DNA of 25,077 nt from a virus: the IMG/VR virus record IMGVR_UViG_3300021168_000081, positions 1 through 25,077 of that record. One strand, written 5' to 3'. The translations under genes were made by a program, and so were the position numbers. The notes beneath the pieces were generated by a model, which had not been told where the DNA came from, did no database searches, and saw only the letters and a list, made by a program, of their open reading frames with translations. Shown here in pieces: positions 675 through 23,686 of this stretch. How positions within the stretch are numbered: position 1 is the stretch's first letter; the number at the start of each line of letters is the position of its first letter.

Positions 675-1691
675 TTAGTTCAAGCGGTTGATTAGGATAC
701 GCATAGATTCTGAGACAGAATATGGAGCCTTAGATTCAGATTCTTCTTCACCAGAGTCAGAGTCACCTGATCCTGAATCACTGTCAGATTCTTCCGAATC
801 ACTAGAGCCAGAATCTCCTTCCTCATTACCATAGTCAGGACTTTCATGATCTTCTTGTCCAGCTTCTGAATTAGCACCTACTTCTTGGCCACCGTCATGA
901 TTCATGCAGCAAATTTCTTCGAATTTTTCCATTGTGATAGTTTCGCCTTCACTACAACATTGAACTAGCTTTTCAGCAAGTTCGTGGAGTTCGTCATCAC
1001 CAGTTGAATCTTCTCTCGCGAATTCTAAGAACTTGATGAACGTTGGCACATCGATCTTCAATACATCTTCGTGTTCATTGCTATCATCACTAGAGCTTTC
1101 TTCATCATGCTCATGACCATTTCCCAATGGGGATTCACCACCTTCTTCACTTGATCCCATACTTGAACTTCCGCCGTCTTGGGAACCATCTTCTTCACCA
1201 CCCCAGAAATTTTCGGCAAGCATGCGATCAATTGCAGTTTCTAGATCAAATGATTCTTTAACTACCTTCGCTTTCTTAGCTGGTTTGTTTTCTTTTGATT
1301 CAGCTTTACCCCAATCATTCTTTGCACGTAACGCAAATGTCAGTTCGCTGAATTTAGTTCGCAGAGCCTTAGGAACTTTCTTACCAGAATCTTCGATTGA
1401 CTTCATGCGTGCTTTGACGCTTGCAAGCTCTTTACGAATCTCAGATTTAGGTTTGCCTTTAAACATACCTTTTTTGCTGTCTGGAGTAGGCTTCATCTTG
1501 AATTCATCGATCTTCTCTTTCTCGCCCTTTGCTTTCACTTCAGCATCCTTACCACGAGGAGTAAAATTCATTTGATCTGCATCCTTTTCTAACCATGGTG
1601 CAGTTTTCTTTTCTTTTTTGTCATCCTTCTTCGTGTCTTTGCCTTCGAAAAGCTTCATTGAGCGAAGAATATCATCGTTATTATTTGCCAT
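675..1691 (-). CDS. Low-complexity acidic phage protein, possibly head-associated
   Basis: 338 residues in three parts. Residues 1-75 are very rich in Lys/Asp/Glu. About 75-165 form a basic helical part. About 165-338 form an acidic Ser/Gly/Asp/Glu region with SDS and SGD repeats, ending SESMRILINRLN. The ATG at 1691 follows an AAAGGA ribosome site and overlaps the previous stop by 11 bases. Residues 14-17 read LFEG, which fits the (L/I)xE cleavage rule of the T4 prohead protease gp21. Charged, low-complexity make-up and placement in a late unit fit a scaffold, prohead core or internal head protein, but no homology is recognised and this is inference. Confidence 0.75.
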   Translation of the reverse strand: MANNNDDILRSMKLFEGKDTKKDDKKEKKTAPWLEKDADQMNFTPRGKDAEVKAKGEKEKIDEFKMKPTPDSKKGMFKGKPKSEIRKELASVKARMKSIEDSGKKVPKALRTKFSELTFALRAKNDWGKAESKENKPAKKAKVVKESFDLETAIDRMLAENFWGGEEDGSQDGGSSSMGSSEEGGESPLGNGHEHDEESSSDDSNEHEDVLKIDVPTFIKFLEFAREDSTGDDELHELAEKLVQCCSEGETITMEKFEEICCMNHDGGQEVGANSEAGQEDHESPDYGNEEGDSGSSDSEESDSDSGSGDSDSGEEESESKAPYSVSESMRILINRLN

Positions 1692-2565
1692 TACTGGATC
1701 CTTTAAAATTTAAATATTGATTCATAAGTGATGATTCACTTACTCGTTTGCCTTTCGGCGTCTTAGATTCGAGATTTGTTTGTTGCTGTGCAAGATTTTG
1801 ACCATTGCCACCAGCCTTAAACTGTGTCCCGATATTATTTTGTGCTCCTAACGAATTCGGATTAGCACTTAATGTTGAGCTAGTTGTTGGATTATTCGGA
1901 TTCGTCGGGTTTGCAGCTTGTTGATTCTTTTGTTGCTGTTGCATTTGCTGTTGTTTTTGAGCATTAACTTTTGCCATATTGATAGCACCAGCACGTTGAG
2001 CAGTTGATCTAAACTGATTTGCTGAGTTTGGATCATCAACAACATTTCCCATGGTGTTTAAAATTGGCTGTAATACTTTTTGATCTGTGGTTGTTAATGT
2101 TGCACCAGCCTGTGCTTTATTAAGTGCATTACCTACTTGCGTTCCAGAAAAGGTTGATCCAGTAACGCCTTTCAAGTTATTGATGGCAGTAGTTTCATCA
2201 TTAGTGACAGGTTCAATTACACCCATATCTTCTTTAACCTTAGACTTCTTCATCTGCTTGCCATTTTTATCAACAGGAATCATCTTGGGATTAGTTGAAT
2301 ACTCATCCATGCGTTTGATTGGCTTTGAAGGCCCACCACTTACAACCGTAGCAATTGATCCGGCAGAACTTGCGCCTGCTGTAGCATTTTCCCAAAGGTG
2401 TTGTAGCTCAGCACTCTCTTTCAACGTATCGATATACGATTTGATCTGAGATAAGCGAGCAACTTCAGCTTCAGTAAGAGTAAATTTACCGTTTTTGATT
2501 TGTTCAACAACTGCCATAGCATCTTTAGCGATGGAATGTAGTTCTGTAATTGATTTCTTAGACAT
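1681..2565 (-). CDS. Unknown phage protein with Gln-rich linker
   Basis: 294 residues. Residues 1-60 are helical (starting MSKKSITELH). Around 65-115 is a Gly/Ser/Lys-rich stretch. About 200-265 is a Gln/Asn/Pro/Thr-rich linker with KQQQMQQQQKNQQ. The C-terminal tail contains RVSESSLMNQYLNFKG. The tail's SES motif resembles the tail of the next gene (SESMRILINR), which suggests the two products share a targeting or assembly role. No family recognised. The ATG at 2565 has only a weak ribosome site (AGG about 14 bases upstream). Probably a late, head- or structure-associated protein, by context only. Confidence 0.7.
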   Translation of the reverse strand: MSKKSITELHSIAKDAMAVVEQIKNGKFTLTEAEVARLSQIKSYIDTLKESAELQHLWENATAGASSAGSIATVVSGGPSKPIKRMDEYSTNPKMIPVDKNGKQMKKSKVKEDMGVIEPVTNDETTAINNLKGVTGSTFSGTQVGNALNKAQAGATLTTTDQKVLQPILNTMGNVVDDPNSANQFRSTAQRAGAINMAKVNAQKQQQMQQQQKNQQAANPTNPNNPTTSSTLSANPNSLGAQNNIGTQFKAGGNGQNLAQQQTNLESKTPKGKRVSESSLMNQYLNFKGSSNGK

Positions 2566-2578
2566 AATACATATTTAC

Positions 2579-2839
2579 CTATATAGTAAAGCTTGTCCCT
2601 ACTAGAACGTCATCAATTTTAATTCTACTCAAATTAAATGTTGCATTCTCGCTTAATGATTCTAATCGTAATTCATACGAACCTAACAGCAAATCTAGTT
2701 CGCATGTTTCATGTAGAACTTCATATTCATTGCTGCAAATGTATGTTTGTTCTAAAAGCATTTTGTTATTCAACCAAATGCGAAACTTTGGTTTGTTTAA
2801 ATTATTACTACTAACGATACAAGAAAAATTAATTTTCAT
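2579..2839 (-). CDS. Small beta-rich phage protein
   Basis: 86 residues, alternating hydrophobic/polar pattern of a beta sandwich (FRIWLNNKMLLEQTY, then LGSYELRLES, then IKIDDVLVG). This pattern resembles small carbohydrate-binding-like or virion-decoration proteins seen in T4-superfamily phages, but no named family can be given. The ATG at 2839 overlaps the end of the nucleotidyltransferase gene by 11 bases, suggesting translational coupling. No obvious ribosome site is present. Part of the late unit starting at the promoter at 3726-3733. Confidence 0.6.
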   Translation of the reverse strand: MKINFSCIVSSNNLNKPKFRIWLNNKMLLEQTYICSNEYEVLHETCELDLLLGSYELRLESLSENATFNLSRIKIDDVLVGTSFTI

Positions 2840-3704
2840 TTTTAGAAAATTGTTGGCTTTTATATTTGACAGCGTTTCTTTTTATTGCAGCTTCTCGTTC
2901 CTTCTTCATATTTTCTCTACGTTCTGCTTCTTTGTATCTAAAATATAATGGATTTACAGGAACATCTGGTGCCTTTGTTGCCTGCGGACTTGCACCCATT
3001 GCAGCCATTGCAATAGACGCACCTGCTGCTACTTTTCTTGCATTTCGTTTAAGTCCTTCAATATCGAAACCTTCTTCCACCTGCGGAGCTAATTTGCACT
3101 GAACTAATGCAAATAGCTTAGGATCAAATCGACCATACAGTTCAGTAAAGATTTGTTTTTGTTCTTCTGCAGATGCTTCCGAAAATAATTTTCTGATTTG
3201 TGTCGCACCTAAAATCTGTTGGCCACCTAGTTCAAATTTGAAATTAGGAATTGGAACAATATATGCATGCTTGTCAAAAGTTTCTAGTTTGCCTTTATTT
3301 GCAGCATATGGTTGAAAGTAACTCGGTGATCCGTCTTTCTTAGGCTTAAAATTGAATCGTGGGTCCTCTTCCATATCCTTTTGTCCAACCGCAAAAATGA
3401 GCACTGTTGATGCTGGATCAAAGTGCTCTGTAATTTCTCTTGCCATATATGGCGATTTTGTATTTACGATATGGTTTGCGGGAATGCCAGCGAATGAAAG
3501 TAGTTCTTTCTTTTCTGCGAAATTGAAGGGCGACCGCGGAGGATCTACCTTATCGCTGGTTGCAACATATACATTATTGGCACCATACGTCTTTGCCAAA
3601 TACTTATATACATTCAAATGATTTTTAGTTGGAGGACTGAACCTACCAGGGTATATTACTAAATTTTGATGTGAAATATCTTCGAACAAATGGAAAAGAC
3701 GCAT
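2829..3704 (-). CDS. Cytidylyltransferase-like (HIGH-type) nucleotidyltransferase
   Basis: 291 residues. Residues 15-29 hold LVIYPGRFSPPTKNH, the nucleotide-binding start of the cytidylyltransferase/NMNAT superfamily, with T26 and H29 in the (H/T)xGH position. Residues 166-172 read GATQIRK, matching the second signature (ISTRKS-like). The fold transfers an NMP to a small phosphorylated substrate, as in NAD synthesis or CDP-alcohol formation; the substrate here is unknown. After about residue 205 comes an unusual tail: an Ala/Gly/Met-rich segment (about 224-242), then a very basic helix to the end. The N-terminus MRLFHLFED carries LFE, a possible prohead-protease site. A late-type promoter sits 22 bases upstream, so it is expressed with structural genes rather than with metabolism. 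Confidence 0.8.
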   Translation of the reverse strand: MRLFHLFEDISHQNLVIYPGRFSPPTKNHLNVYKYLAKTYGANNVYVATSDKVDPPRSPFNFAEKKELLSFAGIPANHIVNTKSPYMAREITEHFDPASTVLIFAVGQKDMEEDPRFNFKPKKDGSPSYFQPYAANKGKLETFDKHAYIVPIPNFKFELGGQQILGATQIRKLFSEASAEEQKQIFTELYGRFDPKLFALVQCKLAPQVEEGFDIEGLKRNARKVAAGASIAMAAMGASPQATKAPDVPVNPLYFRYKEAERRENMKKEREAAIKRNAVKYKSQQFSKNEN

Positions 3705-4343: not shown

Positions 4344-4351
4344 TATTTATT
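4344..4351 (-). promoter_or_regulatory. Late-type promoter element AATAAATA
   Basis: Lies 24 bases before the ATG at 4320 and overlaps the stop codon (4352-4350) of the upstream gene. This placement lets a late unit start with no spacer after an early-class operon. Followed by CTACT-ATTA-AGTAG, a small inverted repeat. Confidence 0.55.
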
Positions 4352-10938: not shown

Positions 10939-10946
10939 TATTTATC
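10939..10946 (-). promoter_or_regulatory. Late-type promoter element GATAAATA
   Basis: Seven of eight bases match the T4 late consensus TATAAATA, 22 bases before the ATG at 10917. It faces away from the phoH promoter, giving a late/early divergent pair in one short intergenic region. Confidence 0.6.
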
Positions 10947-11019: not shown

Positions 11020-11049
11020 TGAAGAGGTAGGATAGTAGTAAATAAAAGT

Positions 11050-11136
11050 ATGAGCATTGAAAGTCTGTGCTCATCACAGAAAGATATGACTCATATTAGC
11101 CGCAGTAACCTTTTCTATTTTAAGGAAAATATTTGA
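11050..11136 (+). other. Possible leader ORF of 28 codons upstream of phoH
   Basis: Starts MSIESLCSSQKDM and ends FKENI with a TGA that overlaps the phoH ATG (TGATG). Its ATG lies in an inverted repeat, ATGAGCA (11050-11056) / TGCTCAT (11068-11074), and no ribosome site is at the right distance. It may be a coupled leader peptide or chance. Confidence 0.3.
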
Positions 11137-11933
11137 TGTCAAGAAGAAAAAACAGAGCAGTAGAGGACGAACATTACAATCAATACGATTCACACAACAA
11201 GAAAACAAATCGTAGTTCTCCACATCAAGATAACACAATCAATTTCAATAGCTATGTAAAGCAGAGAAAAACAGTGCAATTAGTAGCTAAAACTGATAAT
11301 CAGCAAGAATACATTTATCAATTGTTAGATCCATCATTAACTATCGTGTTAGCAACTGGTCCAGCTGGAGCAGGAAAGACACACGTAGCAATGTTGGCAG
11401 CAATTAAGGCGCTAAGAGAAGGCCGAGTTGATAAAATTATTTTGACTAGACCTAGTGTTGGCGCAGATGACGAGAAGATGGGATTTCTACCTGGCACACT
11501 CATGGAAAAGATGGCTCCATGGTGTATTCCTCTATTAGATGTTTTGAAGCAATATTACTCAGTTCCTGAGATTAATAAAATGATTGATGAGGAAGTTATC
11601 GAAATGACTTCAATGGCATTTATGCGTGGTCGTAACTTCAACAACGTATTCGTAATTTTGGACGAAGCACAAAATTGCTCAATCAATCAAATTAAAATGA
11701 TAACAACTCGTGTTTCTGAGAATTGCAAGTTAGTTATTACAGGAGATTTGAAGCAGCATGATAAGAAATACATTGCAGACAATGGTTTTCGTGATTTCAT
11801 CGATAGACTGCGTAATAGCAAGACACAATATATTTCCTTTGTTGAATTTGGGACAGATGATATTCAACGTTCGGAAACAGTAAAAGAAGTGTTGTGGTTG
11901 TATGGGGAAGAAGATCCTCAGAACGAGGAATAA
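11136..11933 (+). CDS. phoH: PhoH-family ATPase
   Basis: 265 residues. Residues 1-45 are a basic, Asn/Gln-rich extension without clear fold. The PhoH domain follows: Walker A GPAGAGKT 75-82, ILTRPSVGADDEKMGFLPG at about 102-120, Walker B VILDEAQN 173-180, and ITGDLKQ 201-207. These are the PhoH (RecA/SF1 helicase-like) ATPase motifs. phoH-like genes are frequent in marine and freshwater phages; the exact role is unsettled, with RNA or phosphate-stress links proposed. ATG 11136 is preferred over the TTG just before it, since AAGGA lies about 10 bases upstream. It is the only plus-strand gene between the left end and 16984, with its own promoter and a strong terminator. Confidence 0.93.
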   Translation: MSRRKNRAVEDEHYNQYDSHNKKTNRSSPHQDNTINFNSYVKQRKTVQLVAKTDNQQEYIYQLLDPSLTIVLATGPAGAGKTHVAMLAAIKALREGRVDKIILTRPSVGADDEKMGFLPGTLMEKMAPWCIPLLDVLKQYYSVPEINKMIDEEVIEMTSMAFMRGRNFNNVFVILDEAQNCSINQIKMITTRVSENCKLVITGDLKQHDKKYIADNGFRDFIDRLRNSKTQYISFVEFGTDDIQRSETVKEVLWLYGEEDPQNEE

Positions 11934-14740: not shown

Positions 14741-15262
14741 TTATTCCTTAAAGAATTCTGATACATCTAAATCAAATTTTATTGAATCTATTTTGTGGAT
14801 ACCTAACTTGAAAAGCACATAAGATGCAGATGCACTTCCTCGACCAACACCCCAAACTATTTTATTTTTACGCATAGTATCTACGAGATATTTAATATAT
14901 CGTAAGAGAGGTAAAAGATTCCTCTCCTCATAGACGCCAATTTCATAGGCAATTCTGTTCAATTCTTTATCATTTTTGCACGAATCTACCAGAAATTGAT
15001 GAATATCGAAGCACTTATATTCGTCTGGCATAAACCATGTATCTTGATTGCTTTTATGATATTCTTCTGTTGAAATATTTGGCGTTTTCCCATTGTATGT
15101 TGCTCTCTTATTAGTAACATACAATTTACATGCGTGATTATACTGTTCTTGAATTTCTGGTTCGCTGATAGCTAAAGAGATATCGACTGTTGGATTTGCC
15201 CACAAGCTATCCAACAGTTCTTGTTCAGTTCTACAAAAGATTCCGTATTCATTAACCTTCAT
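14741..15262 (-). CDS. DNA polymerase III alpha-like fragment protein
   Basis: 173 residues from ATG 15262 (a TTG at 15289 would add 9). The C-terminal 70 residues align by eye with bacterial PolIII alpha (DnaE) around its GPGRGS motif: a helix (ELNRIAYEIGVYEER), RYIKYLVDTMRKNKI, then VWGVGRGSASASYVLF and GIHKIDSIKFDLDVSEFF. In DnaE the next segment is PDFDVDF with the catalytic aspartates. Here the protein stops just before it, so it cannot be a polymerase. The N-terminal 90 residues are unrecognised. Similar short proteins are, from memory, found in marine T4-like phages with unknown role. Overlaps the previous gene by 11 bases. Confidence 0.72.
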   Translation of the reverse strand: MKVNEYGIFCRTEQELLDSLWANPTVDISLAISEPEIQEQYNHACKLYVTNKRATYNGKTPNISTEEYHKSNQDTWFMPDEYKCFDIHQFLVDSCKNDKELNRIAYEIGVYEERNLLPLLRYIKYLVDTMRKNKIVWGVGRGSASASYVLFKLGIHKIDSIKFDLDVSEFFKE

Positions 15263-15884
15263 TTTTAGGCATAATACTTTTGAAGTCAATGATATCAGTA
15301 TCCTTGCTTTCTGTCACTGCCTTATTATTCCGATCCCAATTTAATTCCAATTCTTCCCAAGAACTATATTCAAGTGGAAATTCAATGATATTTTTATTTT
15401 CAAGTTGGAAACTATCAGTAAAACTAATATCATTTCTTAAGAACCAAGGTGCAACAGTGGAATTAGTATTCTGTAAGAAAATTGGAAGAGGATGTTCATG
15501 TGAAATTGAATATTCTATACCGGATCCGCGTGAAGAAACAATCGTGATTTCTTCCATAATAATTTTACCTTCAGCTACAGCATTGCATTTTGTGTAAAGC
15601 AATCCACAAAGAATATGATCGGTGGGTTCGCATGGAACTGCCACCACATTATTACTAAATGCATACGGTAGTTCTGCTGCAAATTCGTTCATAGTGCAAA
15701 TTAATGACCCACTAAAGAAGCTTTCTGCAACAGTTTGTATTCTTTCTAATGCGATATCCTGTTCCTCGAATGCCTCTGATACGATTTGCATTCTTAGTTC
15801 TAATTCAAAATTGACCGGAACAAGCATATCTTCAGTCAATAGAATACTTGTGAAGGCAGGCCTCCATGTAATTACATTTCGCAT
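15252..15884 (-). CDS. Unknown phage protein, mixed alpha/beta
   Basis: 210 residues. It starts MRNVITWRPAFTSILLTED. Helices at about 25-70 (ELRMQIVSEAFEEQD) are followed by strands (VVAVPCEPTDHILCGLLY, KIIMEEITIVSS), and the tail is acidic. No family recognised. It lies between an 80-residue helical protein (2-base gap) and the DnaE-fragment protein (11-base overlap), so it is part of one polycistronic unit from the MazG promoter. The overlap with the DnaE-like gene may mean the two act together, but that is inference. Confidence 0.78.
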   Translation of the reverse strand: MRNVITWRPAFTSILLTEDMLVPVNFELELRMQIVSEAFEEQDIALERIQTVAESFFSGSLICTMNEFAAELPYAFSNNVVAVPCEPTDHILCGLLYTKCNAVAEGKIIMEEITIVSSRGSGIEYSISHEHPLPIFLQNTNSTVAPWFLRNDISFTDSFQLENKNIIEFPLEYSSWEELELNWDRNNKAVTESKDTDIIDFKSIMPKNEG

Positions 15885-16851: not shown

Positions 16852-16894
16852 GGAAGTTGGTATAATATCACCATATAATTCCGCAATGCTAGAC

Positions 16895-16902
16895 ACTAAA
16901 TA
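16895..16902 (+). promoter_or_regulatory. Late-type promoter element ACTAAATA
   Basis: Matches six of eight bases of the T4 late consensus. A T4-like start about six bases downstream would fall near 16908, the first base of the hairpin. The 5' leader would then be about 76 bases. Confidence 0.55.
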
Positions 16903-16907
16903 TTAAT

Positions 16908-16932
16908 CCATACTTGCACAATGTAGGTATGG
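16908..16932 (+). promoter_or_regulatory. 5' leader hairpin of fibre mRNA, copy 1
   Basis: CCATAC (16908-16913) pairs with GTATGG (16927-16932). The inside (TTGCA/TGTAG) continues the pairing with two G-U wobbles to an 11-bp RNA stem with loop CAA. It is the likely 5' end of the late mRNA and may protect it from decay. The second copy is at 23064-23088. Confidence 0.6.
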
Positions 16933-16983
16933 AAATAGCAACACATTTGAATAGTATTAAATTTTATATAAAAGGAGAAAATT

Positions 16984-17853
16984 ATGTCTACTTCAAATCT
17001 CATTGGTTCAGCTTTACTTTCAATTCCAGCAGTTGTGGATCTACCATCAGCAACAAATGATGTATTGGGTGGTGTCATGGTTCAAGCTAATTCTGGTATC
17101 TTAGTCGATAGTAACGGTAATATCTCAGTTGATACTACTGAATTTCTATCTACATCTCAAGCAGCATCAACTTATGCAACACAATTGTCTTTGTCTAATT
17201 ATCTGACAATTTCAGATGCAACAACTACGTATGCAACACAAACAGCATTGAATAATTATGCATTGCTTAGTGGTGTAAATTTTAGTGGTCCTGTTGAAGT
17301 TCCTACAGTAGCAAATGGTGATAGTTCTAATAATGCAGCTTCTACTCAATTTGTTGCTGAAGCAATCTCTGGTAGTAGTGGATATACATTGCCTATAGCA
17401 ACAACTTCTACTTTGGGAGGCATTAAAGTGGATTCAGGGTTAGAAGTCGATGGATCAGGTAATGTATCAACTGTAAATAAATTGACCAATACAAAAACGT
17501 ATTATCTTCAAATGGTTAATGTTGTAGGAGGAACAGTTGAATTTTTGATTGATTCTTATACTGTACCTAGTGATGCTAGGTATGTAATATTTTATGGTGA
17601 TACTAATAGTTTTAATGCTGGTTCTCCACCTAATAATAGCACTTGGACTCTAACGTTTCCAATACCAACCGGTGACGGGCATACATTTACTTATAGCGTA
17701 GGAAATCTACAATATGGGAATTTGGCAACTTCAGACGGATCTACTATCTATCCCACAAATGAAGGTGGATCTAGTTTTAGACAATATAGTGCTGGAGCCA
17801 GCACTTGGGTGTATTTTGAATCTGTAAATGCATGGCTACCAGGTGGCTATTGA
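16984..17853 (+). CDS. Short tail-fibre-like protein A
   Basis: 289 residues. Two copies of a fibre repeat are visible: ATNDVLGGVMVQANSG, followed by ILVDSNGNISVD, near 20-50, and STLGGIKVDSGLEVDGSGN near 140-160. Between them lie coiled, Thr/Ala/Tyr-rich repeats (TYATQ twice). The C-terminal ~120 residues form a beta-rich knob with TFPIPTGDGHTF and SDGS. The protein is paralogous to 23140-23658 (shared start, LGGVMVQ, P.GxGH and SDGS motifs). A strong AAAAGGAG precedes the ATG. Likely a fibre or adhesin tip that contacts the host; exact position in the virion is unknown. It converges on 17890-19314. Confidence 0.8.
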   Translation: MSTSNLIGSALLSIPAVVDLPSATNDVLGGVMVQANSGILVDSNGNISVDTTEFLSTSQAASTYATQLSLSNYLTISDATTTYATQTALNNYALLSGVNFSGPVEVPTVANGDSSNNAASTQFVAEAISGSSGYTLPIATTSTLGGIKVDSGLEVDGSGNVSTVNKLTNTKTYYLQMVNVVGGTVEFLIDSYTVPSDARYVIFYGDTNSFNAGSPPNNSTWTLTFPIPTGDGHTFTYSVGNLQYGNLATSDGSTIYPTNEGGSSFRQYSAGASTWVYFESVNAWLPGGY

Positions 17854-17859
17854 TGTGGT

Positions 17860-17890
17860 AAAGAAAAAGCCCCGGCGGGGCTTTTTCTTT
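17860..17890. terminator. Strong bidirectional terminator
   Basis: A 14-bp stem (AAAGAAAAAGCCCC / GGGGCTTTTTCTTT) with loop GGC, flanked by A-run and T-run, so it ends both convergent genes. Its last base touches the stop codon of the minus-strand gene. Confidence 0.93.
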
Positions 17891-19314
17891 TATGCTATTT
17901 GATTCCAATTTGTTCCATCTGATATGTATGAGGCACGTAATGTATTTGTAGCAAATGATGTACCAGACAATGCCTGGAGCCCATTGATAGCTCCAGCGCT
18001 AGTCGCAATAGTAATATTATTTGTTGAAGTTTCTGTCTTAGCAACTTGAATAACTTTTCCAGTAAATCCAACAGGAGTATGTAATGTTACTGAGAATGCG
18101 CCGCCTGTTGCACTGCATAAAATGACAGAATCTGTTGTTGCAGCAACATATGTAGTAGTTTTACTTACTACGTTTTCAATATAATATTGACCAGATATTG
18201 CGCCAGCTACTCCCATACCGCCAGTTACAACCACTGTTCCAGTTGAGGTTGATGTACTTGCCACGCCACCTGTAACAGTTAATACACCAGTACTACTCAA
18301 GCGCATTTTTTCAGCTTTAGTTATTGAGCTAGTCGGTGTAACTTCAAATATAAGCGCAGTTGGCATTGAAGTATCAGTAAATGCACCTTCTGATATCACA
18401 CCAAATAGACCAGTGGAAGCTGCACCGAATCCTGTTGCACCATATCCATGCCCAGTAAATGTAGCTAGTAAGTCAGTCGTTTGTGTTGCAGTTGGGCCGG
18501 CTGCCGTTCCTCGTGCCTGTCTAGCAGAAATACCTGGCGCCTGATTTGTACTGTTGTATGTTTCAATTAATGCACGGCAACCACTAGCATCAAGATTAAC
18601 TAAACGTAGCAATGTACCAGGCAGTGCAGCTGGTTGAGAAGCCAATGGTGTCACGTTTGCATTCACATTAACGTTTGATCCACCAGTAAGAGAACCAGTT
18701 GCAGAAATGTTACCAGTAATGCTTAGATTACCATTCAATGTTGTGCGTGATTGTAATAGATCAACAATGAAGAAACTTCCTGAGCCATCAAACGTGCTAA
18801 ATTCATACAGATAATTGCCTACTGTAGGGAATGTGATGACATTCGCAGACAACCCATTGATTCCTGTAGTTCCTAATGTGACTGTCGCTGGAATTGTTAG
18901 TGTATATGCAACGTTAGTGACAACAACTTCTAAACGAAGCCTACCATAATTACCAGCTGCTGGAAAGCCAGCAAATGAAATAGTTGTTGATCCACCAGTC
19001 GTAATGCGTTGGAATGATGCAGTAGTTGCATTGATACTTACAGCACCACTTACAACGCCAAGATCAAGAATCAAATCTGCGAAACCAGCAGTAACTGCAT
19101 TTGAAAGAAGCGCACCTTGAAAGTTATTGTTTAATGTGCCACCAGTCAAAGCCGATTTAAGAATTGCTTTATTTTGCAAGTCAGTAATTTCTGCTGCCGC
19201 AAACGTAAAATTGGTTGCAGTATTTGCAAAATTGTCACGAAATCCCTGAGAATTGTTGTCTTGACCAGCAACAGGGAACGTGATGTTAATAGAATTAGGA
19301 TTAATGTTACTCAA
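17890..19314 (-). CDS. Tail-fibre-like repeat protein A
   Basis: 474 residues. The start INITFPVAGQDNNSQGFRDN then FTFAAAEITDLQ is a head typical, from memory, of T4-superfamily phage fibre-type proteins. The rest is Thr/Gly/Ala/Ser-rich beta repeats (GVASTSTSTGTVVVTGGMGV), ending in a C-terminal domain finishing YISDGTNWNQIA. Paralogous in the C-terminal ~200 residues to 23706-25077. The start is TTG at 19314: no ATG is in frame before it, and AAAGGA lies about 12 bases upstream. A late-type element (19344-19337) sits 23 bases upstream. Likely a virion fibre. Confidence 0.82.
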   Translation of the reverse strand: MSNINPNSINITFPVAGQDNNSQGFRDNFANTATNFTFAAAEITDLQNKAILKSALTGGTLNNNFQGALLSNAVTAGFADLILDLGVVSGAVSINATTASFQRITTGGSTTISFAGFPAAGNYGRLRLEVVVTNVAYTLTIPATVTLGTTGINGLSANVITFPTVGNYLYEFSTFDGSGSFFIVDLLQSRTTLNGNLSITGNISATGSLTGGSNVNVNANVTPLASQPAALPGTLLRLVNLDASGCRALIETYNSTNQAPGISARQARGTAAGPTATQTTDLLATFTGHGYGATGFGAASTGLFGVISEGAFTDTSMPTALIFEVTPTSSITKAEKMRLSSTGVLTVTGGVASTSTSTGTVVVTGGMGVAGAISGQYYIENVVSKTTTYVAATTDSVILCSATGGAFSVTLHTPVGFTGKVIQVAKTETSTNNITIATSAGAINGLQALSGTSFATNTLRASYISDGTNWNQIA

Positions 19315-19336
19315 AATGAAGTGTCCTTTATTTTAG

Positions 19337-19344
19337 TATTTATG
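19337..19344 (-). promoter_or_regulatory. Late-type promoter element CATAAATA
   Basis: Seven of eight bases match TATAAATA. It covers the stop codon (19342-19340) of the upstream 1002-aa gene and lies 23 bases before the TTG start at 19314, a no-spacer arrangement like that at 4344-4351. Confidence 0.65.
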
Positions 19345-22300
19345 CCAAGATATTATACTTAGGAAACTCTAAGAACGTATCTCCATCACCAAATGCCATG
19401 TAAGTATCTTTATTGTCATAGAATCTAGTTGTATGCATATCGAATGTCGTTTCGTGTCCAAGAATAACTGAAAGGTTAATATCATATTCTGGAACATTTG
19501 AGCCAGACTCAATTATGGGATTGTAGAACAAGTTCTTTCCAGCATAAGTATTTCCATTCAACACATTAACGGATTGATTTGTCTTGACATTTATTTTATA
19601 AGCCAACGTGACAATTTCTGTTATTGGGTTTATACTAATTTGCCACACACCTGAACGCATATTTACTAGCGATTGACCTAATTGAACCTGTGTATAACCA
19701 GGAATTACAAATGCTGACGTAGAAACTTCTTTATACACCATATCATATGTGAATAAAGTTGAATCAAATGTGATATTGCTAGTGTCAAGAGACAAACTTA
19801 GTGCTTCCTGACCATTCGAATACCATCCAAAATTTGGATCCAAAATACCGTCATAGAATTCTTGTTTAGCAAAAATGATTGTATTATTATCATTGGCACT
19901 GGAAATCATACTGCCATCCAATCCACCATTTGCATTGATGGATGAGATTGTTTGGCCATTGATAGAGTTGTAAGATGTTGATACAGCATAATTTACTGTC
20001 GTTACAATAGGGAGCGTGCTTGCAACAGTTGTAAATTTATCAAATGTTGTTTCTGCACTAGGTAAGAATGATCCTGTGCTTGTGTTGTAATTAATACTTA
20101 ACGCATCGTCTAGAACATACTTATCAACTAAGAAATAATTTTCTTGGAAATCATAATTTGATTGTTGAATATTATACACAATACGAGAGCTTTGTCCAGG
20201 ATTTGTATAACAGATAACAAATGCTTGTGTGAATCCCAAAATACTGCCATTGGGTTGAATACTAGTCATCCATAATGGCAGTTGAGCATAAGTTTCTAGA
20301 CCTATGTTTGTTGTAATACCCTCCGGCGGAGTGGCATCAGCAGTATTATTTGTGTCATCAGCAGTAAATGATACACCATCAGCACTTACTGGTGTGATTG
20401 CATTCAGATTGAGATTACCAAATGCAATTTGATCACGCATTGCCTCAATACTATTCGGATATACTGGACCAATCACAGTCTCAACTACAGCATATTTGCT
20501 TAGAGCCTGAGGCGTAGGAACGTTCAATCCTGCTGCTGAACTTGCATTAATCAACGGATCAACAGCTTCAACATAAACGACTTCATACAATGGATTGCCG
20601 TTGCTATCAGTTGCCATTGCTGTTTTTACATTACCCATCCATAATTGTTTTCTGTAATGATTTTTTTGCATGGCAGCAAGATACACATCAGAATCTACGG
20701 GATTAATACCGCTCAGCACTAGCATATTCAAATTTTGTGAGACACCAAAAAATGTATCGTTAAATCTATAGATAGAAGATTCAGGGAATATTGTAGGATT
20801 ATTAATGAAGTTAGTAAAATCATTGCGTGGATTTGTGTCTTGATATGCAAATAGATACAAATCATCATATGGTCTCAAATATGTGGGCTTTACTGTAATA
20901 ACAAATTCCCTAGTGCTTATTGCTGTTTGAGTTGAATCAGTTGCTTGAATAACAAACGTATAAGTAGCATCAAATGTAGTCACACCACCATCAATAGTTG
21001 TAGTTGCGTGATCTAAAGTAAAAATTTCAAAGCTTGCACGTCCAACAATCAAGCCATCCTGTTGCAATTGTAATCCATCTGGTAGTTTGCTTGCAGAGTC
21101 AGGAGCAATAGAATATGATAAGCCAGCACCAGAACTAGAAACAGCTTGAATAGAGAACATACTAGTGTCTCCGTTGTTCATTGATCCTAAGTTACTCGGA
21201 GTTATCCAAGATATAATATTGGCATTTGTTCCCTCAATGACAAGATTATACGTTACGGGTAAACTAATATATGATGGGAATTGGGTTTTATAAACCACCA
21301 TAGTGAAATTAAATGTGACCGTTCCGATTGTTAAAGGAGGAACGAGACCATATACCCATCCAGTCTGAGAATCAAGTTTCAAGCCTGGCGGCAAATTAGA
21401 GTTTAATTCAGATGCATCACAAGTGTATTTTGTGCTATCACATGTTATATGAGTTGTGTTTATGTATAAGAATGTACCGACTTGAAATGTTATAGCATCA
21501 CCATCTGGATCAGTTGCGTGAAATTGGAATGCGAAATAATCACCGCTAACGCTAGTGCCGATATTTGGGCCAATTGTAGTTAGGAACGGAATACTTAGTG
21601 TATCTTCATCTGCCGTAGGAATACCTGCATCATCTGCTGTGAGTTGTGTATTGTCTGCTGTGAGTGAATTTTTTGCAACTACTAAGAAGTAATACGTTGC
21701 ATATACATTTTGAATTCCATCAGTAACAGCAATAGTAAATTTATAGTTTGCATCAGCATTGACACTATTGAAATCAAATAAACCTTTATCGTATGGAGTT
21801 TCATCCCATCCTTGAATTAATCCAGAAGCAGGTGGATTTTCAATAATGTGTCCTGATATAAGACCTGTTGTTTCATTTAAAGTGACACCTGCAGGAAGTG
21901 CGCCATTGACGATACTATATGTTAAAATTGCACCTGGGATACTATCAGCAGCTACAATTTGAATACTTATAAATTCACCAGTATAAAATTGTCCTAATGA
22001 ACCTTGTGTGGGTGCAGTAATTATTGGAGCAACTTCACCAGTAACTGTAACAGAGAATGATTGATCTGCAACATTATTGGTTGTTGTTTTTGCTCTGACA
22101 GTAAATCTACTGCTTACATCACTATTGAATGTTGTTTGATTTGAAGAATTTGATGTTACTTTAGTTGGAACACCTGACAATGTGCCAGCAGAATTTAGTC
22201 GGATACCAGGTGGAAGCGCACCAGACACAAGACTATACGTAATAGTTTGATTGTCTGGATCTTGTGCTACTAAGTTTAGTGTGTAAAAAACATTCTCAGC

Positions 22301-22348
22301 GATGACACCGAGATTACCAGCTAGTGTTTGCCATACCGGTTGTGCCAT
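19340..22348 (-). CDS. Large Ig-like-repeat virion protein
   Basis: 1002 residues. It opens with AQPVWQTLAGNLGVIAEN and then carries about four He_PIG/cadherin-like beta domains. Each has the pattern DPDNQTITYSLVSGALPPG then GTLSGVP or close to it (about 1-105, 108-230, 240-370, 380-490). The second half is beta-rich with no recognised domain and ends FPKYNILA. These are extracellular adhesion-type folds and the gene lies in the fibre region, so it is probably a tail or baseplate-attached protein. ATG 22348 follows AGGA (about 10 bases) and a late-type element at 22378-22371. The gene ends on the late promoter of the next fibre gene. Confidence 0.85.
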   Translation of the reverse strand: MAQPVWQTLAGNLGVIAENVFYTLNLVAQDPDNQTITYSLVSGALPPGIRLNSAGTLSGVPTKVTSNSSNQTTFNSDVSSRFTVRAKTTTNNVADQSFSVTVTGEVAPIITAPTQGSLGQFYTGEFISIQIVAADSIPGAILTYSIVNGALPAGVTLNETTGLISGHIIENPPASGLIQGWDETPYDKGLFDFNSVNADANYKFTIAVTDGIQNVYATYYFLVVAKNSLTADNTQLTADDAGIPTADEDTLSIPFLTTIGPNIGTSVSGDYFAFQFHATDPDGDAITFQVGTFLYINTTHITCDSTKYTCDASELNSNLPPGLKLDSQTGWVYGLVPPLTIGTVTFNFTMVVYKTQFPSYISLPVTYNLVIEGTNANIISWITPSNLGSMNNGDTSMFSIQAVSSSGAGLSYSIAPDSASKLPDGLQLQQDGLIVGRASFEIFTLDHATTTIDGGVTTFDATYTFVIQATDSTQTAISTREFVITVKPTYLRPYDDLYLFAYQDTNPRNDFTNFINNPTIFPESSIYRFNDTFFGVSQNLNMLVLSGINPVDSDVYLAAMQKNHYRKQLWMGNVKTAMATDSNGNPLYEVVYVEAVDPLINASSAAGLNVPTPQALSKYAVVETVIGPVYPNSIEAMRDQIAFGNLNLNAITPVSADGVSFTADDTNNTADATPPEGITTNIGLETYAQLPLWMTSIQPNGSILGFTQAFVICYTNPGQSSRIVYNIQQSNYDFQENYFLVDKYVLDDALSINYNTSTGSFLPSAETTFDKFTTVASTLPIVTTVNYAVSTSYNSINGQTISSINANGGLDGSMISSANDNNTIIFAKQEFYDGILDPNFGWYSNGQEALSLSLDTSNITFDSTLFTYDMVYKEVSTSAFVIPGYTQVQLGQSLVNMRSGVWQISINPITEIVTLAYKINVKTNQSVNVLNGNTYAGKNLFYNPIIESGSNVPEYDINLSVILGHETTFDMHTTRFYDNKDTYMAFGDGDTFLEFPKYNILA

Positions 22349-22370
22349 GGACGGTTATTCCTAATACTAT

Positions 22371-22378
22371 TATTTATT
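22371..22378 (-). promoter_or_regulatory. Late-type promoter element AATAAATA
   Basis: Seven of eight bases match TATAAATA, 22 bases before the ATG at 22348. Only 9 bases from the divergent extended -10 of the homing endonuclease. Confidence 0.55.
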
Positions 22379-22387
22379 GAAATTTTG

Positions 22388-22396
22388 TGATATAAT
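22388..22396 (+). promoter_or_regulatory. Extended -10 promoter of the endonuclease gene
   Basis: TGATATAAT: an extended -10 (TG, one base, TATAAT at 22391-22396) 24 bases before the ATG at 22420. No convincing -35 is seen. It is divergent from the late-type element at 22371-22378. Confidence 0.5.
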
Positions 22397-22419
22397 CTGT
22401 ATGTATTGAGAATATAAGA

Positions 22420-23034
22420 ATGGACATTTATTACGTTTATATGTATTTGAGGGACAAGGATACAAAGAATGGTCCTAAGGGATCACCTTACTATATCGGT
22501 AAAGGAAAAAACAATAGGGCATACGAACCTCATATGAGAATAAAAGCAAATTTTCGACCTAAAGATAAATCAAGAATACGTTTTATCAAAGAAAATTTAT
22601 CAGAGGACGATGCATACATGTGGGAGGCATTTTGGATTGCAGAATTTGGCCGTATTGATCTGGGAACTGGTTGTCTGAGAAATTTAACTGACGGAGGCGA
22701 AGGTAATAAAGGCATATCAGATAAATCAAGAAAACAAAAACAAGAATGGATGTTGAATCCCAGTAACAATCCCATGTATAATGCTTCTAGCGTAGAAAAA
22801 CTCAAGAAAACATTGACTGGAAGAACACAAACTGAGGAAACAAAAGCTAAAATAAGCAATACATTGAAAGGATTTGTTGTTACTGAAGAAGCTAAGAAAA
22901 ATCTCAGCAAAGCACTTAAAGGAAAAATTAAGAAGAAAACTCCTTGTATATACTGTGGCAAATTAGTGGATGGCGGAAATATGAAATTGCATCATGGAGA
23001 TAGATGCAAATATAAAGATAATAGCACGATATAA
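22420..23034 (+). CDS. GIY-YIG homing endonuclease
   Basis: 204 residues. The catalytic domain (1-95) has IYYVYMY at 3-9, PYYIGKGKNNRAY at 23-35 with Arg33, WIAEFGR near 72-78, and NLTDGGEG near 87-94. Then comes NPSNNPMYN, and NUMOD3-like repeats (GRTQTEETKAKISNTLKG and VTEEAKKNLSKALKGK). The end holds a zinc finger-like CIYCGKLVDGGNMKLHHGDRC. This resembles Seg-type free-standing homing endonucleases of T4-like phages, which cut a homologous phage genome to spread themselves and nearby DNA. It sits between two fibre modules. The ribosome site is weak. It carries its own promoter and probably arrived as a mobile gene. Confidence 0.9.
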   Translation: MDIYYVYMYLRDKDTKNGPKGSPYYIGKGKNNRAYEPHMRIKANFRPKDKSRIRFIKENLSEDDAYMWEAFWIAEFGRIDLGTGCLRNLTDGGEGNKGISDKSRKQKQEWMLNPSNNPMYNASSVEKLKKTLTGRTQTEETKAKISNTLKGFVVTEEAKKNLSKALKGKIKKKTPCIYCGKLVDGGNMKLHHGDRCKYKDNSTI

Positions 23035-23050
23035 TTCCTGTAAATTTAAT

Positions 23051-23058
23051 ACTAAATA
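23051..23058 (+). promoter_or_regulatory. Late-type promoter element ACTAAATA, copy 2
   Basis: Second copy of the element at 16895-16902, 82 bases before the ATG at 23140, and followed by the same hairpin (23064-23088). Its high identity to copy 1 suggests either recent duplication or selection on the leader. Confidence 0.55.
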
Positions 23059-23063
23059 TTAAT

Positions 23064-23088
23064 CCATACTTGCACAATGTAGGTATGG
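23064..23088 (+). promoter_or_regulatory. 5' leader hairpin of fibre mRNA, copy 2
   Basis: Identical to the hairpin at 16908-16932: CCATAC pairs with GTATGG around a wobble-containing inner stem, loop CAA. Confidence 0.6.
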
Positions 23089-23139
23089 AAATAGCAACAC
23101 ATTTGAATAGTATTAAATTTTATTTAAAAGGAGAAAATT

Positions 23140-23658
23140 ATGTCTAATTCAAATCTCACAACAGTTTTAACTGCAGTTCTTCCCTCAGCAACAGATACAG
23201 TATTGGGCGGTGTCATGGTTCAATCTGGGTCCGGCCTCGCCGTCGATTCAAGCGGCAATCTTTCTGTAACAAATTCAAATCCATTAACAAATAGTGATAT
23301 AGAAATTGTGCAAGTAACTTCAGCTACAGCACAACTATTGACTTCATATTCTATAACACAAAATTCAAAATATGTTTGGTTAAACGCTATGGATTTTACT
23401 CCACCTGGAGATGTCGGTCAGTGGCCAACAGGTTTTACATTAACAATGCCAATGCCACTCGGTAACGGACATATTGTTAATGTGAGGATTAGCGGTAATT
23501 TCAATTCTATTGAAATTAATACATCTGATGGATCAATATTTTTTCAACCATATGCTAGGACATACGTACCAATATTAAACACAAATGGTGGCGGATTTTA
23601 TACATTTGTATATAGTGAAAGCGATACTTGTTGGTATGAGATACAAGCAGGAGTGTAA
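23140..23658 (+). CDS. Short tail-fibre-like protein B (paralogue of A)
   Basis: 172 residues, shorter than its paralogue at 16984 (289). The N-terminus MSNSNLTTVLTAVLPSATDT, then VLGGVMVQSGSGLAVDSSGNLSV, matches repeat 1 of A. The middle of A is absent. The C-terminal knob aligns by eye (LTMPMPLGNGHIV and TSDGS against TFPIPTGDGHTF and TSDGS), then diverges to the end. A GC-rich patch (about 23227-23262) differs from its AT-rich surroundings. Shares the duplicated leader and converges on 23706-25077. Likely host-contact fibre or adhesin variant. Confidence 0.8.
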   Translation: MSNSNLTTVLTAVLPSATDTVLGGVMVQSGSGLAVDSSGNLSVTNSNPLTNSDIEIVQVTSATAQLLTSYSITQNSKYVWLNAMDFTPPGDVGQWPTGFTLTMPMPLGNGHIVNVRISGNFNSIEINTSDGSIFFQPYARTYVPILNTNGGGFYTFVYSESDTCWYEIQAGV

Positions 23659-23659
23659 T

Positions 23660-23686
23660 AAAAAAGCCCCTTTAAGGGGCTTTTTT
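23660..23686. terminator. Bidirectional Rho-independent terminator
   Basis: AAAAAAGCCCC / GGGGCTTTTTT stem of 11 bp with loop TTTAA, 1 base after the stop of fibre protein B, and 20 bases before the stop of the convergent gene. Position matches the terminator at 17860-17890 in module A. Confidence 0.93.

Follow-up and report, generated by a model that had tools for sequence, protein, structure and literature searches.

The leader of gene 32, the gene for the single-stranded DNA (ssDNA)-binding protein gp32, has been studied in phage T4. A pseudoknot in this leader serves gp32 autorepression (PMC535899, PMC3014915); binding of free gp32 starts at the pseudoknot and extends along an A/U-rich stretch (PMC3014915). 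The linker of T4 gene 32 contains UUAA(A) units (PMC535899, PMC3014915), and UUAAA units are required for repression by gp32 (PMC535899). According to an account from 2010, the gene-32 pseudoknot is possibly the sole viral pseudoknot in translational autoregulation (PMC3014915). It has been proposed that the frame of the T4 gene segG was extended into the region of the gene-32 pseudoknot leader (PMC535899). Homing endonucleases initiate localized gene conversion around their sites (PMC2988022).

The stretch analysed in this study (the window) comprises all 25,077 bases of its virus record. Judged from its ClpA-like protease, it is evidently a fragment of a jumbo-phage genome. Along its full length, this protease shares up to about 62% identity with proteins encoded on contigs that reach 374 kb; its identity to those of jumbo phages, among them Phosso, Atu_ph07, and RaK2, is 38-43%. 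For a short open reading frame (14741-15289, minus strand), the match covers only a part of the DNA polymerase III alpha family (phrog_11127, 171 aa), which suggests a split polymerase.

Two nearly identical leaders and a neighbouring predicted homing endonuclease

The following features were identified around two genes of the window, here called A and B.

16895..17002 (+), leader copy A: late promoter, 5' untranslated region with the predicted pseudoknot, ribosome site, and first six codons
23051..23158 (+), leader copy B
16862..16883 (+), upstream block A
23018..23039 (+), upstream block B, overlapping the last codons and stop of the endonuclease gene
16984..17853 (+), gene A, 289 aa, probable fibre-like virion protein (phrog_9625, LGGV repeat)
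23140..23658 (+), gene B, 172 aa, probable fibre-like virion protein (PHROG match)
17860..17890 (+), terminator 3' of gene A
23660..23686 (+), terminator-like hairpin 3' of gene B (AAAAAAGCCCC TTTAA GGGGCTTTTTT)
22420..23034 (+), free-standing GIY-YIG/NUMOD3 homing endonuclease, 204 aa, directly upstream of copy B (phrog_314, PF07460)

The original prediction described a 108-base leader present twice with two differences and no gaps, in which promoter, hairpin, ribosome site, and the first six codons were all retained. Both statements were confirmed. The copies are identical at 106 of 108 positions, ungapped, and differ at 16968 (A; T at 23124) and 16991 (C; A at 23147), with exact-match runs of 73, 22, and 11 nt; the hairpin scored z = -2.7 to -3.7 relative to shuffles. 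The match of the tract within the genome (E = 1.6e-50) is far beyond chance, and upstream of the ATG 88 of 89 bases are equal. The homology had been taken to consist of the 108-base tract; the tract itself stands, but the homology reaches further upstream, where past an unrelated spacer of 11 nt (3/11 matching) the two upstream blocks agree at 19 of 22 positions. Mismatches between A and B amount to 2/108 in the leader, 3/22 in the block, 8/11 in the spacer, and 32/99 in the N-terminal coding region, i.e., 98% identity in the leader versus 86%, 27%, and 68% in the flanks (Fisher p 0.03 to 6e-10). These counts establish the identity of the two leaders and the limits of the mosaic.

A third copy of the leader was absent from the window, 29 records of relatives, and the collections searched, and exact and gapped pattern searches of viral and genome contigs with the leader gave no match. 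Other duplicated leader pairs with at least 68% identity were absent from 80 relative loci. Among the few pairs detected in three full-length relatives, most were either recurring TTGAC/TATAAT early-promoter regions or coding sequence of paralogues. In the relatives G002, G003, and G005, several probable early genes of one genome have similar TTGAC..TATAAT promoter regions (63-79% over 80 bases).

Beyond the first six codons the two genes had been described as strongly diverged. The divergence is real (40% amino acid identity over 152 aligned residues, third-position identity 0.37), yet A and B are paralogous along their length. They share the N-terminal motif LPSAT..LGGVMV..G..VDS.GN.SV and a C-terminal domain, and bear the LGGV..V..G..VD..G..S repeat of phage fibres, with a weak match to phrog_9625. 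From this repeat motif and the weak PHROG matches, we infer that both are fibre genes. Neither matched ssDNA-binding protein families; no close relatives were found, matches being limited to the widespread LGGV repeat, and no related locus with these genes was present in the collections searched. Exchange of fibre genes through the leader homology, a possibility raised by the original prediction, was accordingly not seen in these collections. Structure prediction of both proteins gave a pLDDT of 35 and was unusable.

The predicted endonuclease has the N-terminal motif IYYVY..YYIGKGK. With a GIY-YIG domain, a NUMOD DNA-binding motif, and an intergenic position, the gene is assigned by its sequence features to the Seg type. 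Its C-terminus (RCKYK-DNSTI*) is extended by five residues, DNSTI, compared to a homologue in L255 (RCKFK*), and the extension reaches into the block that is common to the region upstream of copy A. No uninterrupted allele of the endonuclease site was found. L223 has a GIY-YIG gene immediately in front of its gene-32 leader, with 39% identity over 151 residues to the window endonuclease. In this locus (797-3194), gp32 stands between two GIY-YIG-like genes: one follows it directly, and the other stops about 22 bases short of the late promoter. Because of the extension into the shared block, the T4 segG precedent, and the arrangement in L223, endonuclease-driven spread of the leader is, by analogy, plausible.

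The most serious alternative is a plain recent segmental duplication, or replacement of the leader by ordinary phage recombination, in which the endonuclease took no part; it fits either function of the leader, and we place it somewhat short of even odds. T4-type phages recombine freely, the tract is short, and both of its neighbours are paralogues. Such recombination leaves unaccounted for a predicted DNA-cutting gene immediately next to one copy, its frame continuing into the shared block, and the presence of genes of this kind next to gene-32 leaders in T4 and L223.

Late promoter, predicted pseudoknot, and likeness to gene-32 leaders

The leaders contain the following elements.

16896..16902 (+), T4-type late promoter core CTAAATA of copy A, 88 nt before the ATG
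23052..23058 (+), T4-type late promoter core CTAAATA of copy B, 88 nt before the ATG
16907..16947 (+), predicted H-type pseudoknot A: stem 1 16907-16915/16925-16933, loop 1 16916-16919, stem 2 16920-16924/16943-16947
23063..23103 (+), predicted H-type pseudoknot B: stem 1 23063-23071/23081-23089, loop 1 23072-23075, stem 2 23076-23080/23099-23103
16948..16983 (+), A/U-rich linker A with one UUAAA and Shine-Dalgarno sequence AAGGAG at 16972-16977
23104..23139 (+), A/U-rich linker B with two UUAAA and Shine-Dalgarno sequence AAGGAG at 23128-23133

The most strand-biased 7-mer upstream of genes in 80 relative loci is ATAAATA (149 forward versus 11 reverse); CTAAATA is also strongly biased (75 versus 15), and both peak about 28 nt before the ATG. 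This is the T4-type late promoter, a single TATAAATA-like element upstream of late genes. The distance of 88 nt in leaders A and B compares with about 28 nt in most late genes of the relatives. ATAAATA was also observed 20-30 bases before several minus-strand genes of the window (10939-10946, 19337-19344, 22371-22378, and 4344-4351). A scan for sigma-70 promoters gave no excess relative to shuffles. The leader of a phoH-like gene (11136-11933) at 11038-11136 (+) has GTAAATA and a possible pseudoknot (ATGAGCA / TGCTCAT, TCTG:CAGA) with a score near that of shuffles.

The 5' end of the predicted message probably forms an H-type pseudoknot, TCCATACTT-GCAC-AATGT-AGGTATGGA-AATAGCAAC-ACATT. The descriptor score of pseudoknot A was reached by none of 20000 dinucleotide shuffles, and that of pseudoknot B, which has the same sequence, by 1 of 5000 shuffles. 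Alternatively, stem 1 may be extended to a 12-bp hairpin, which excludes stem 2. The A/U-rich part over the ribosome site is largely unpaired in A and less so in B (mean 0.67 and 0.47). An Rfam search of the leader gave no match at gathering score; the sub-threshold candidates SAM-V and freshwater-2 (E about 1) were dismissed as chance in A/U-rich sequence.

Among long late leaders with structured 5' ends in three 355-kb relatives, that of gene 32 (phrog_1192) stood out, with the promoter distance and the hairpin of the window leaders. A late promoter lies 70-90 nt before the ATG in about 70 of 84 gene-32 leaders. Many of them fit an H-type pseudoknot (for example, TATATAATT-GCACG-GTGC-AGTTGTATA-TCTAG-GCAC in L165), and a strict pseudoknot descriptor found 16 of 45 gene-32 leaders, a minority of them, where 0.8 were expected. 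The nine pairs of stem 1 align without gaps between the window and the gene-32 leaders. Covariation in this stem is 0.423 versus 0.192 in shuffles (0/500) for the window and gene-32 leaders together, and 0.382 versus 0.196 when the window rows are omitted. In stem 2, the GUGC:GCAC of gene-32 leaders is AUGU:ACAU in the window, two compensatory changes that keep the pairing. UUAA is enriched in the gene-32 linkers of the relatives (1.36 versus 0.49).

A covariance model was made from gene-32 leaders only, with the window left out. Leaders A and B are its two best hits in the window (26.2 bits, E 0.0056), and in 29 records of relatives all nine hits above 22 bits directly precede gp32 genes. Shared descent of the window leaders with gene-32 leaders, rather than convergence, is likely on these comparisons; it is not firm, because the model score is modest and an ordinary late promoter also reaches 22 bits. 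A third hit in the window (4350-4308, minus strand, 22 bits) is an ordinary short late leader before a 54-aa open reading frame. Hits of the model outside gp32 in relatives (L251-L254, all at or below 21.3 bits) were, on inspection, without a comparable pseudoknot leader. The window contains no gp32 gene.

The leader could instead be of a general high-expression late type, in which the 5' hairpin only stabilises the message, the likeness to gene 32 is convergent, and the tract was recently duplicated between the paralogues. We consider this unlikely, if still worth weighing. The hairpin of the leaders is by itself very stable, the dnaK, hsp20, and small structural genes of the relatives also have 5' hairpins behind late promoters, and the modest model score leaves room for convergence. 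However, the position at 88 nt and the lengths of stems and loops match gene 32 and not other structural genes, most of which have leaders of about 28 nt; the pseudoknot is preserved through compensatory change, and the UUAAA linker is present.

The dnaK leaders of the relatives (L007 2247-2320, L018 2078-2150, and near dnaK in L003 and L031) begin with a late promoter, behind which come a 5' hairpin with the loop UGCC..GGG and a CCAUUUG linker. An H-type pseudoknot is possible in those of L007 and L018 (AUGG:CCAU, UGGG:CCCA). A related UGCC..GGG hairpin was observed at Hsp20-like and other genes in G002, G003, and G005.

Age of the shared tract

Leader identity was calibrated against coding divergence in 84 gene-32 (ssDNA-binding protein, phrog_1192) loci of related jumbo phages. 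Gene-32 leaders average about 61% identity at a third-position identity of 0.45, and leader identity of at least 98% occurs only where gp32 identity is at least 90%. The leaders of A and B agree at 88 of 89 bases although third-position identity of the genes is 0.37. Since leaders so alike occur only between near-identical gene-32 genes, the leader appears to have been copied or converted recently, and the tract, as read from its sequence, is a mosaic insert that is recent relative to genes A and B. Recent gene conversion, one of two causes offered by the original prediction, is thus supported (as conversion or copying) both by the 98% leader between diverged flanks and by the calibration; the comparison of leader and coding divergence, which had been suggested as a check, upheld the contrast.

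The other cause, selection for equal expression, is unsupported as the sole one, because leaders of the same architecture differ freely between phages. Two old copies held identical by such selection alone would explain why all functional parts of the tract are conserved, but same-architecture leaders evolve quickly between phages, and unpaired loop and linker bases are identical as well; we regard this as very improbable. Structural selection by itself does not explain the identity of the leaders. An assembly artefact with one leader copy wrongly joined is scarcely credible, even for a single metagenome contig of which no second record was found. The copies have two differences and share no exact run of more than 73 bases; if the reads had the common length of 150 bases, they would be longer than the tract; and both copies are preceded by an older block of homology.

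Proposed mechanism and comparison with known systems

Our preferred reading, to which we give a probability of about 0.5, is that a late leader of the gene-32 kind, with a pseudoknot, passed from one paralogous fibre gene to the other, by copying or by recombinational conversion, when the two had long since diverged; we infer control by gp32 and a role of the endonuclease. The late RNA polymerase would start at CTAAATA and, if the spacing is that usual for T4 late promoters, the message would begin no more than a base or two from stem 1, where the pseudoknot may cap and protect its 5' end. The strong Shine-Dalgarno sequence would give high translation as long as no free gp32 binds; as in T4, the protein would nucleate on the pseudoknot and extend along the A/U-rich linker. 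If free gp32 represses translation in this way, fibre synthesis would therefore track the demand for ssDNA-binding protein. The GIY-YIG endonuclease may cut near leader sites, and repair that converts the flank would copy the leader. Both fibre genes would then be expressed late, equally, and in step with that demand; if gp32 did not bind, the leader would act simply as a stable high-expression leader. A bolder version, in which the gene-32 operator spread to the fibre genes as cargo of a homing endonuclease and gp32 controls fibre synthesis in trans, i.e., an RNA regulon built by a selfish endonuclease, strikes us as distinctly improbable.

What appears to be new here is a gene-32-type leader on virion genes together with an endonuclease at the leader edge. 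The original prediction mentioned neither the T4 type of the late promoter, nor the pseudoknot and its likeness to gene-32 leaders, nor the endonuclease gene next to copy B. If our preferred reading is true, the gene-32 architecture, which is the rule on gene 32 in dozens of jumbo-phage contigs and occurs on two virion genes in one, would be a portable regulatory module, and virion protein synthesis would be tied to DNA replication. The mosaic beside a homing endonuclease would provide a concrete route by which a regulatory leader moves between genes.

The T7 gene 10 leader resembles the window leaders in its 5'-terminal stem-loop, A/U-rich spacer, and strong Shine-Dalgarno sequence before an abundant virion protein, but it has a different promoter, and to our knowledge no pseudoknot has been claimed for it.

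The gene-32 leaders of the relatives (phrog_1192 loci L152-L240) share with the window leaders the position of the late promoter, a stem 1 of 7-9 bp (9 bp in the window) with a GCAC-type loop 1, a stem 2 of 4-5 bp with 0-1 nt between the stems, and an A/U-rich linker with a Shine-Dalgarno sequence. They differ in loop 3 (9 nt in the window versus about 5 nt) and in stem 2 (AAUGU:ACAUU in the window versus GUGC:GCAC), and the window leaders lack the GGCAC and GACCA(U/A)CUUAA motifs found in most gene-32 leaders. A conserved GACCA(U/A)CUUAA or AUUAUGGCAC between pseudoknot and Shine-Dalgarno sequence was observed in L152-L240; it is not described in the T4 papers (PMC535899, PMC3014915).

As in the gene 32 operator of T4 and RB69, the window leaders have a 5' pseudoknot, here a predicted one, followed by a less structured A/U-rich part with UUAA(A) over the ribosome site. 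They stand before two fibre-like genes and not before gene 32, and their sequence is not comparable with that of T4. Copy B, like T4/RB69 gene 32, is also preceded by a GIY-YIG gene with a frame that enters the conserved leader region. Like T4 SegG, the window endonuclease is encoded directly upstream of a (predicted) pseudoknot leader and has a C-terminal extension into recipient sequence; its neighbour, however, is a fibre-like gene, its similarity to SegG is of a general family kind, and its activity is predicted.
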